From Alkalibacter rhizosphaerae (GTDB taxonomy: Bacteria; Bacillota; Clostridia; Eubacteriales; Alkalibacteraceae): a DNA stretch of 64,000 nt. The notes below the pieces were generated by a model, which saw nothing but the letters and a program-made list of their open reading frames with translations, did not search any database and was not told the origin of the DNA. This document shows, piece after piece, positions 8,646-60,222 of the stretch. The position numbers were made by a program, and so were the translations under genes. Numbering within the stretch: the first letter of the stretch is position 1; every line of letters begins with the position of its first letter. Location: positions 2,046,001-2,110,000 of the forward strand of contig NZ_CP071444.1 of assembly GCF_017352215.1 (NCBI RefSeq), given 5' to 3'.

Positions 8646-8675
8646 GGATGTAATGAAAGGATGTGGAACAACGAA

Positions 8676-8830
8676 GCACCAGCAAGCGCCAGAACTCCGA
8701 CAGGAGTGGACGAGGTTTGGGGAGTATCGAATGTTCGGCGGATGCCCCAAAAGTGTTAAAATCCAACTTAACATATTCTTCAGGACAAAACCCAACGGGT
8801 GACCGTGGGCACAAATCCATGAATGGTTCT
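8676..8830 (+). ncRNA. glmS ribozyme (glucosamine-6-phosphate-activated)
   Basis: A self-cleaving riboswitch in the 5' leader of glmS. The conserved core AGCGCCAGAACT lies at 8685-8696, with the expected cleavage between A8685 and G8686. It is followed by GACGAGG, the GGATGCCCC segment pairing back to TTGGGGAG, and the late GGGTGACCGT element. In the family, binding of glucosamine-6-phosphate triggers cleavage and RNase J-mediated decay of the glmS mRNA, giving end-product control. The 3' boundary is approximate. With the terminator and promoter it fills the 368-base gap between glmM and glmS. Confidence 0.93.
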
Positions 8831-8927
8831 ATTCGAAATTTATTGACGAAACAAGAAAAACACACGACAAGACCCAGACATACGGGTTTCTTTTATGTTG
8901 TGCAAAAACTAAATTTGGAGGTTTATT

Positions 8928-35536: not shown

Positions 35537-35803
35537 TGCCGCGCTGGATGGGGAGTTAGCGGTGCCCTGTACCTGCAATCCGCTATAGCAGGATCGATCT
35601 CCCGACCGAGGCTGCTGCTGCAAATGTTGGTTTCGTCTCAAGCGGTGTTGAGAGCCGGGCCCTGTGCAATAGATACTTGTGAACCCCGTCAGGTCCGGAA
35701 GGAAGCAGCGGTAAGCGAGGACGCTATGTGCCGCAGGTATACCTGGTTTGAGCTGGCTGTTGCGAGGCAGTTTGTGGTGGTCGTCGACGTTGGGTGCGCG
35801 GCA
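35537..35803 (+). ncRNA. ffs: Signal recognition particle RNA (large, Gram-positive type)
   Basis: A 267-nt RNA with terminal complementarity TGCCGCGC (35537-35544) to GTGCGCGGCA (35794-35803) and the universal apical core GTCAGGTCCGGAAGGAAGCAGC at about 35689-35710, which binds the Ffh M domain. It has the Alu-like 5' domain of Bacillus and Clostridium scRNA (about 270 nt). SRP RNA directs co-translational targeting of membrane proteins. Directly upstream of dnaX, the conserved Firmicutes order. Ends are inferred from the terminal helix; flanking bases to 35481 are the precursor leader. Confidence 0.96.
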
Positions 35804-57315: not shown

Positions 57316-57344
57316 TTGACAGAAAAAGACGAATACACTATAAT
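57316..57344 (+). promoter_or_regulatory. Consensus promoter of the leuS T-box transcript
   Basis: TTGACA (57316-57321), 17 bp, TATAAT (57339-57344): a perfect sigma-A promoter. Confidence 0.9.
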
Positions 57345-57350
57345 TATGAG

Positions 57351-57567
57351 ATAATTTGACATGGTCTCTGCAGTGGAGTAGTAAGGACATGCGTATCCAG
57401 AGAGTCGGTGGCAGCTGCGAACCGATTGCGCAAAACCTGAACTTGCCACCAAACATATGCAGAAAGGGTAATGCCTTTAACCGTTAGAAGAGGGCTTTTT
57501 AAGCCAACTAGGGTGGTACCGCGGAAGCCTTTCCGTCCCTTGCGCAAGCAGGGGATTTTTTTGCGCG
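57351..57567 (+). promoter_or_regulatory. T-box leader (tRNA-Leu-sensing) with terminator
   Basis: A regulatory leader that reads uncharged tRNA. Seen directly: AGAGAGTCGGTGG in the distal Stem I, the T-box core AACTAGGGTGGTACCGCGG (57506-57524), and a terminator TCCCTTGC-GCAA-GCAGGGGA plus T7 (57535-57567). Pairing of the core with the NCCA end of uncharged tRNA would form the antiterminator. A CTT at 57442-57444 is a possible leucine specifier codon; its position was not confirmed by folding. The 217-nt leader and the repeat stretch after it make up most of the 505-base gap before leuS. Confidence 0.92.
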
Positions 57568-57589
57568 AAAAACCGAGCATCTGCGGTCC

Positions 57590-57639
57590 GTTCCGGGGGC
57601 CGCTTCCCAAGCTTGCTTGAGGGAAGAGGACGGCGGAAT
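57590..57639 (+). repeat. 50-bp hairpin repeat, copy 1
   Basis: Begins GTTCCGGGGG and ends GACGGCGGAAT; identical to copy 2 at 49 of 50 positions. Each copy can fold: TTCCG with CGGAA outside and CTTCCC with GGGAAG inside. Around copy 1 the stem extends by GGTCC (57585-57589) with GGACC (57640-57644). Confidence 0.85.
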
Positions 57640-57723
57640 GGACCATAGGGCGAAGCCCGCGACGAAGCCTTGCAGAAGGCAAGGCGGAGTGGCAGATGGT
57701 AGTGACGGTTGTCATCAGGATTT

Positions 57724-57773
57724 GTTCCGGGGACCGCTTCCCAAGCTTGCTTGAGGGAAGAGGACGGCGGAAT
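57724..57773 (+). repeat. 50-bp hairpin repeat, copy 2
   Basis: Direct repeat of 57590-57639 (one G/A difference at position 10), start-to-start distance 134 bp, ending 38 bp before the leuS start. Between the copies are two more hairpins: GGGC-GAA-GCCC (57648-57658) and GCCTTGC-GCAAGGC (57667-57685). Confidence 0.85.
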
Positions 57774-57811
57774 AAGATCGCAGGATATTCAAAAATTTGA
57801 GGAGGCAGTCT

Positions 57812-60222
57812 ATGAAACCTTACAATTACAAAGCCATCGAAGAAAAATGGCAAACGATTTGGGAAGAAAAAGAATTGTTCAAAGCACGAGATTTTTCCGA
57901 GAAACCCACTTTTTACGGGTTGGTGGAGTTTCCATATCCCTCCGGTGTGGGTCTGCATGTGGGACATGTACGGGCCTATACTTCCTTGGAAGTCATTTCC
58001 AGAAAACGTCGATTGGAAGGATACAATGTCCTTTATCCCATAGGTTGGGACGCTTTCGGATTGCCGACGGAAAACTACGCCATCCAAACCGGGCGCCACC
58101 CCGAGCGGTGACGGATGAGAACATCAAGGTCTTTACGGAACAATTGAAAGAGATCGGATACTCCTTCGACTGGGATCGAACGGTGGATACGACGGATCCC
58201 GGCTATTATAAATGGACCCAGTGGATCTTTTTGAAACTGTTTCAACACGATCTGGCGTATAAAAACAAAACCTACGTCAATTTCTGCAATGACTGCAAAG
58301 TTGTTTTGGCCAATGAAGAATCCCAAGACGGAGTTTGCGACCGGTGCGGCAGCGAAGTGGTCCAAATGGAAAAAGACGTGTGGTTTTTGAAAATTCGCGC
58401 GTACGCAGAAAAGCTTCTGGAAGGTTTGGAGCAGGTGGATTTCCTTCCTCGCATCAAATTGGAGCAGGAGAATTGGATCGGTAGATCCACCGGTGCGGAG
58501 GTGGACTTTATCGTAGCGGACACCCAGGATAAGCTCACTGTCTTTACCACCAGACCGGATACCCTTTATGGCGTTACTTTCATGGTCGTTGCGCCGGAAC
58601 ATCCCCTGGTGGAAAAATACAGGGACCGCATTGAAAACATGGATGAGATCCGGGCGTATCAGGAACAGGCAAAAAAGAAAACCGAATTTGAACGGGTCCA
58701 GTTGGCCAAGGAAAAGACCGGAGTGGAAATAAAAGGGCTGCAGGTCAAAAATCCGGTCAGTGGAGAATTGGTTCCCCTCTGGGTGGCGGATTACGTCATG
58801 ATGGGGTATGGAACCGGCGCCATTATGGCCGTACCGGGTCATGATGAACGGGACTGGGAGTTTGCCGACAAATTCGGCATTCCCATCGTGGAAGTCATTC
58901 AAGGCGGCAATGTGGCGGAAGAAGCATACACGGACATCGACAAGGGAATCTTGGTGAACTCTCCGTTGATCGATGGTCTGGCAGTTGCCGACGCCAAGGA
59001 AAAGATCATGGACTATCTGGAGAAGGAAGGGATCGGAGAGCGGACCATCAATTACCGGATGAAAGATTGGGCATTTAACCGACAGCGGTATTGGGGAGAG
59101 CCCATTCCCATCGTCCATTGTTCTTCCTGCGGAATGGTTGGTGTGCCGGAAGAAGAGCTTCCAGTCACCCTTCCTGTTGTGGACAATTATAAACCCACAG
59201 AAACGGGAGAATCCCCATTGGCACTCATTGAGGAATGGGTCCAGACCACTTGCCCGTCCTGCGGCGGACCGGCCAAAAGAGAAACGGACACCATGCCCCA
59301 GTGGGCCGGATCCAGCTGGTATTTCCTTCGATATATGGATCCGAAAAACGAAGAGCGATTTGCAGGCAAGGACAAGTTGGACTACTGGCAGAGAGTGGAC
59401 TGGTATAACGGCGGGATGGAGCATGTCACCCGACACTTGATCTATTCCCGATTTTGGCATCGATTCCTCTATGATTTGGGAGAAGTACCCACACCGGAAC
59501 CATATGCAAAACGGACGGCCCAAGGTCTCATTCTAGGTGCTGATGGAGAAAAAATGAGCAAGTCCAGAGGGAATGTCATCAATCCAAGAGACATCATTGG
59601 AGAATATGGCGCGGATACCCTGCGAACCTACATCATGTTTATCGGAGATTATGAAAAGCCGGCACCATGGTCCGATAACGGAGTTAAAGGTTGCAAGCGA
59701 TTTCTGGACCGGGTCTGGAAGCTTCAGGAAGTGGTCACAGAGGGGGATGTTTACCGCAAGGAAAATGAAGTGCTGATGAACAAAACCATAAAAAAAGTGA
59801 CGGAAGATTATGAAAACCTGAAGTTCAATACGGCCATCGCTGCCATGATGAGCCTGCTCAATGAATTTAACGGGAAAGGATCCATCAACCGTAAAGAGTA
59901 CGAGGATCTGTTGTTGCTGCTCAATCCGGTCGCGCCGCATATCACAGAAGAATTGTGGGAGATCATAGGATCCGATGAGAAATTGCACATGCGGTCCTGG
60001 CCGAGCTTCGATGAAGAAAAAACAATGGAAGATATCATTGAAATGGCGGTCCAGGTCAATGGAAAGGTGCGAGGAAAGATCCAAATCCCTGCGAAAGCAG
60101 ACCAGCAGCAAGCGCATGATGCAGCATTTGAAGAAGCAAGCATCATGGCCTATGTAGAAGGAAAGACTGTAGTAAAGGAGATCTTTGTCCCCGGCAGGAT
60201 CTACAACATTGTTGTAAAATAG
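57812..60222 (+). CDS. leuS: Leucine--tRNA ligase, interrupted by a one-base frame change
   Basis: Class Ia synthetase charging tRNA-Leu. From ATG 57812 (TGAGGAGGCAG upstream) the first frame reads [13 protein letters not shown], the HIGH-type VGLHVGHV and [17 protein letters not shown], then meets TGA at 58109-58111. The conserved text resumes in the -1 frame as [24 protein letters not shown] and runs on through the editing domain ([13 protein letters not shown]), the KMSKS loop [10 protein letters not shown] and the anticodon-binding C-terminus to 60222. Joined, the length (about 803 aa) is normal. One missing base at about 58099-58105 would explain it: a C-run error, a real mutation or frameshifting. 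leuS is usually essential, so an error is the simplest reading. Confidence 0.88.

Follow-up and report, generated by a model that had tools for sequence, protein, structure and literature searches.

Introduction

Several described systems resemble the locus reported here in part. Group IIC (bacterial-C) introns insert directly after rho-independent terminators (PMC8919778). REP/BIME elements with RAYT transposases are small, intergenic, palindromic repeats present in many copies, whereas miniature elements (MITEs) such as pneumococcal RUP and BOX are non-coding, with terminal complementarity and a patchy presence. The unexplained Clostridiales-1 RNA (Rfam RF01699) combines a closing stem, a long variable arm and further hairpins.

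We analysed a 64,000-nucleotide stretch of the Alkalibacter rhizosphaerae genome (NZ_CP071444.1, positions 2,046,001 to 2,110,000, forward strand; hereafter the window). An initial annotation had singled out the interval 57568-57811, between the T-box terminator of leuS and the leuS start codon, as an inserted small repeat of the REP or MITE kind or an extra layer of RNA control. On balance, we read it as one copy of a dispersed, non-coding and probably mobile structured element docked at RNA 3' ends, together with a partial copy of its arm.

Results

Layout of the leuS leader

The features of the locus, all on the + strand, are as follows.

57316..57344, +: sigma-70-type promoter of the leuS leader, TTGACA-17-TATAAT, with a 12/12 consensus match, 5' of the T-box
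57358..57543, +: T-box leader RF00230 (87.3 bits, just below the gathering score of 93; E 1.5e-19; full length 1-219)
57535..57562, +: T-box intrinsic terminator (stem 57535-57556, T-run ending at 57562)
57563..57700, +: whole terminator-docked multi-arm element (model R3 52.9 bits, E 8.7e-11, a rough value; fold z -3.88)
57563..57572, +: conserved 5' tag GCGCGAAAAA adjoining the T-run, common to copies across genera
57578..57584, +: 5' strand of the closing stem, CATCTGC, paired with 57692-57698 in the fold
57585..57644, +: long variable arm in the fold, with loop AAGCTTGCTT at 57609-57618; includes repeat copy 1 (57590-57639)
57648..57658, +: conserved hairpin GGGC-GAA-GCCC within the core ATAGGGCGAAGCCCGCGACGA, nearly invariant in 24 copies
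57667..57685, +: third hairpin in the fold, GCCTTGC/GCAAGGC
57692..57698, +: 3' strand of the closing stem in the fold, GCAGATG
57718..57779, +: extra partial copy, an arm without core; includes repeat copy 2 (57724-57773)
57812..60222, +: leuS, the T-box-controlled gene, its reading frame broken near 58100

The leader has the fold and antiterminator of a T-box and lies 5' of an aminoacyl-tRNA synthetase gene; its specifier would be CUU (Leu), as we infer from the Rfam alignment, where these letters come after the conserved GAA of stem I. The leuS start codon lies 112 bases 3' of the end of the element at 57700. Between 58090 and 58110 the first frame stops at ...QTGRHPER* and the remainder continues in another frame. 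LeuS is a single frame of about 800 aa in relatives, and since this is the sole LeuS match of such quality in the genome, the break is likely a base error in the assembly. The window also holds a glmS ribozyme (8674-8834, + strand) and a bacterial large SRP RNA (35539-35801, + strand).

Much of what the initial annotation had seen here is borne out. The terminator lies directly 5' of the repeat interval, the two 50-bp direct repeats are 49/50 identical with starts 134 apart, the CATCTGC and GCAGATG strands are present and close the element in the predicted fold, and G+C is higher in the interval (about 0.57-0.64) than in its flanks (0.38-0.54). The boundaries need redrawing: the repeats are real, but the natural unit is 57563-57700, which starts 5 bases before 57568, and the 50-bp unit is a copy of the long arm of the element rather than the whole of it. 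At the base of the extra arm the sequence differs (GATTT/AAGATC) and the pairing is kept; partial tandem copies of this kind occur at other family loci as well. The interval 57568-57811 folds with z = -4.06 against shuffles, and its minimum-energy fold shows an alternative to separate hairpins, in which one arm pairs with the other. A further alternative comes from the RNAalifold consensus, in which the CGCG of the 5' tag pairs with the CGCG of the core.

A dispersed family in Clostridia

Searching relatives for ATAGGGCGAAGCCCGCGACGA returned short exact matches at loci that share a layout: a terminator T-run, a GCGYGAAA tag, a closing stem, a long arm with loop AAGCTYGCTT, the core, a short hairpin and the second strand of the closing stem. 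The alignment set of one covariance model, R2, included the window copy, so its match to the window arises by construction. A second model, R3, was built from 21 copies of the Acetobacterium group, leaving out the window and the Lachnospiraceae copies; it matches the window at 52.9 bits (E 8.7e-11 over 146 kb, covariance-model E-values being rough after a short calibration), and it also finds the Lachnospiraceae copies and four copies in two congeners (50-64 bits). Across copies the element measures about 120-155 nt, and that of the window comprises about 140 nt without coding capacity.

Family matches occur in 37/67 genomes of the order, most richly in Acetobacterium (37 in G012), with 18 in G019, and more sparsely at class level (18/291 genomes). 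Copies are known from Acetobacterium, Eubacteriaceae and Lachnospiraceae. Viral contigs gave no exact core match, and plasmids and phages gave no similarity.

The genome of the window holds only one intact copy. No second copy of the 50-bp unit or of the core was found there at up to 3 mismatches, bar one 3-mismatch core match at 2207873, which was set aside because, to judge from its flanking sequence, it lies inside a gene. An 81% match from the first search (L004, in G038) was judged by eye to be chance. The initial annotation had looked to many dispersed copies of the 50-bp unit as a sign of a mobile repeat; taken literally this fails, since nearly every locus has an arm sequence of its own, and that at leuS is single-copy in the genome of the window. 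That genome holds four further, identical weak matches (16.7 bits, E 0.24), at positions 320490, 499417, 1216968 and 1223569 of contig C1 of G000 (L276, L277, L279 and L281). These are near-identical structures, with loop GGAAAGCTTGCTTTCC and hairpin TTGGGCGCAGCCC, just upstream of 16S rRNA genes and antisense to them. One of them scores 24.9 bits with R3 (E 0.0007) and has a fold of like shape (z -5.6); relationship of the four to the family is probable but unproven.

The element matches no family in Rfam 15 at cut-off, its Clostridiales-1 match falling below, and a literature search of incomplete coverage found no description of the family, which is apparently previously undescribed.

Docking at terminators and RNA 3' ends

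In a first count, a T-run and hairpin lay upstream of 53% of 90 copies, compared with 1.6% of random positions. Under a stricter test a terminator adjoins the 5' end at 31/67 distinct sites, against 49/1340 control positions (3.7%), and a terminator on the other strand lies at the 3' end of 4/67; roughly half of the sites do not pass, several of which look like terminators by eye. Energy limits, T-run length and cluster thresholds were our choice and were not varied systematically. Other copies follow the 3' ends of 5S rRNA or tRNA, within 2 nt in L252 and L253. These counts show that copies dock at the 3' ends of intrinsic terminators and stable RNAs in one orientation. After 5S genes we also observed a second type of module, GGAGCCATCTGGCGACTGACGCGACGAGG...GTGCCGCATGG, often in tandem with the first (L014, L015, L077, L131 and L190).

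Of the roughly 75 loci scanned with Rfam, the window included, 19 have a regulatory RNA no more than about 100 nt upstream on the same strand: T-boxes at six (the window, L065, L099, L112, L162 and L186), cobalamin riboswitches at seven (L005, L007, L008, L101, L107, L125 and L141), c-di-GMP-I at three (L009, L111 and L142, of which L142 belongs to a congener of the window), FMN at two (L067 and L164) and the M-box at one (L176). Independent docking events are fewer than 19, because L099 and L112 represent one locus seen in a pair of species, and the proteins encoded after L007, L008 and L125 are similar. Regulatory terminators make up about 1/20 of intergenic terminator-like sites, a rough base rate from one window, and enrichment after regulatory RNAs is therefore indicated rather than established. 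Where an ORF could be called at these loci, it usually starts 16-200 nt 3' of the element on the same strand, placing the element in the 5' leader; the exceptions are two c-di-GMP cases, with the ORF at 313 and 996 nt.

Pairing kept while arm sequence changes

In an alignment of 24 copies, 91.5% of cells are paired, as against 69.4% after shuffling and 38-46% when slid, the slid control being favourable by construction because the structure was drawn from the same sequences. Double changes number 224 against 71, and 0/500 shuffles did as well; they affect all 20 of the 20 modelled pairs of the long arm and 11/17 of the closing stem. An arm-swap test, independent of this alignment, gave 47.3 for own arms, 13.8 for arms swapped between copies and 11.8 for random ones. 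Together, these comparisons strongly support the view that arm pairing is kept by covariation while the sequence changes between copies. Capture of the arms from flanking DNA was ruled out, as only tandem copies match.

The arms are also asymmetric between strands. Among 78 elements, G-U type pairs outnumber A-C type pairs by 70 to 26, and counted per 48 arm clusters by 43 to 21 (p = 0.008). This excess points to the strand colinear with the terminator as the one that folds, whether in RNA or in single-stranded DNA, between which it does not discriminate, and it speaks for selection on a single folded strand more than for pure parasitism.

Occupied and empty leaders

One T-box leader of Acetobacterium carries the element in 2/9 species, and in the other seven the terminator is followed by the start codon within tens of bases; the element thus comes or goes. 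The two occupied orthologous leaders carry unrelated arms. Nor is the element conserved at leuS: the gene has neither T-box nor element in G001 and G002, both congeners, and in G005 it has the T-box only. In the leuS leader of G003 (L025), the T-box terminator runs directly into a long hairpin (loop AGCTCGCT), with a second partial copy further downstream; none of the models matches them.

Discussion

Our preferred reading, that of a dispersed and probably mobile element docked at RNA 3' ends, retains the earlier suggestion of an inserted small structured repeat, which agrees with the covariance-model family in relatives and with the occupied and empty orthologous leaders; membership in REP is the part that is not supported. 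Such an element would move as a non-autonomous unit, its insertion guided by a terminator or RNA 3' end; tolerance at such sites would follow from its being transcribed only on read-through. For the same reason the copy before leuS would stay silent while charged tRNA-Leu keeps the T-box terminating. Upon antitermination it would form a very stable block in the leuS 5' UTR, which may be cut, the long arm being a plausible substrate for a double-strand RNase; alternatively, the element may merely ride along in the leuS transcript. Several points speak against this reading: our searches found no mobiliser for the element and no copies on plasmids, phages or viral contigs, the genome of the window holds a single intact copy, the sequence of the arm is locus-specific, unlike that of an ordinary MITE burst, the arms show the G-U excess, and some half of the sites do not pass the strict terminator test.

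The competing reading that survives best, to which we give roughly one chance in four, is that of a functional leader or 3'-end module beside riboswitch and T-box terminators, tRNAs and 5S, whose role would be in fail-safe termination, in mRNA stability or in processing, for example through RNase III-type cutting of the long arm. Pairing that is kept despite sequence change, the asymmetry of G-U over A-C, and the 19 of some 75 loci that follow a T-box or riboswitch, usually with an ORF shortly downstream on the same strand, all speak for it. It sits poorly with the seven of nine orthologous T-box leaders that lack the element, with the element-free leuS of congeners, with the unrelated nature of the downstream genes, and with copies that also follow 5S, tRNA and plain terminators. 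The extra layer of RNA control that had been proposed for leuS may exist, since the wobble pairs are strand-asymmetric and copies often lie after riboswitch and T-box terminators. A bolder version, which we hold tentatively and no more firmly than the functional module, would make the family a class of modular RNA element not described before, with RNA 3' ends (the conditional terminators of T-boxes and riboswitches, 5S and tRNAs) as its address, with a long arm rewritten at each locus yet paired, and working on read-through transcripts.

We think it quite improbable that the element is a member or direct derivative of Clostridiales-1 RNA. The layouts are alike, both families occur in Eubacteriaceae, and RF01699 does match weakly at 57710-57807; that match, however, reaches 21.9 bits against a gathering score of 48 and covers the extra arm rather than the core. 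Moreover, R2 recovered no RF01699 loci bar a fragment at E 0.51, and a terminator lies upstream of only 5/30 RF01699 copies.

Still less credit is due to an element of REP-like or IS200/IS605 derivation moved by a Y1 tyrosine transposase. The hairpins, the fixed orientation and the placing of insertions 3' of a T-run do resemble single-strand transposition, and the genome of the window (G000) encodes three Y1 proteins of 254-278 aa, but the element flanks none of the 18 Y1 loci tested, and copies occur in several genomes that have no Y1 match (G050, G056 and G016). Those three proteins, at 803516, 924006 and 1774134 of C1, are longer than typical IS200 TnpA. A chance repeat or assembly artefact, which the leuS frameshift near 58100 might bring to mind as a sign of base errors, is refuted for the element by independent homologues in other assemblies and species and deserves almost no weight.

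If the placement holds in a full survey, the family would represent a structured repeat with docking sites at RNA 3' ends, regulatory terminators among them. Its insertion between a riboswitch or T-box and the controlled gene would then be a natural experiment on leaders gaining parts, and the locus-specific, nearly perfectly paired arm raises a concrete question: how are such arms rewritten?

Comparison with known systems

With group IIC introns the element shares insertion directly after an intrinsic terminator (31/67 sites, against 3.7% of controls); no Rfam match to a group II intron core (domain V) reached the gathering score in the window or the scanned loci. Small size and multiple intergenic palindromic copies recall REP/BIME, from which the element differs as a larger, multi-arm unit that showed no association with Y1 genes in our tests. 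Like the MITE type, it is short (120-155 nt) and non-coding, patchy in its presence, with the closing stem as terminal complement; it differs from RUP and BOX in that we found no parent transposase or target duplication and in that its long arm is locus-specific in sequence, yet paired.

Clostridiales-1 RNA shares with the element the closing stem, the long variable arm with a GCUUGC-type loop, hairpins near the 3' side, and dispersed, sometimes tandem copies in Eubacteriaceae. In G025 and G055 (L221-L237) it forms a dispersed, partly tandem repeat with up to 29 matches per genome, and genome-wide in G000 it gives no match at E 0.001. The core of Clostridiales-1 differs, being a UGAGcAuGaAGc hairpin without GGGCGAAGCCCGCGACGA, and its arms are more alike between copies and mostly not docked at terminators. 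The family described here offers a comparison set for that unexplained RNA.
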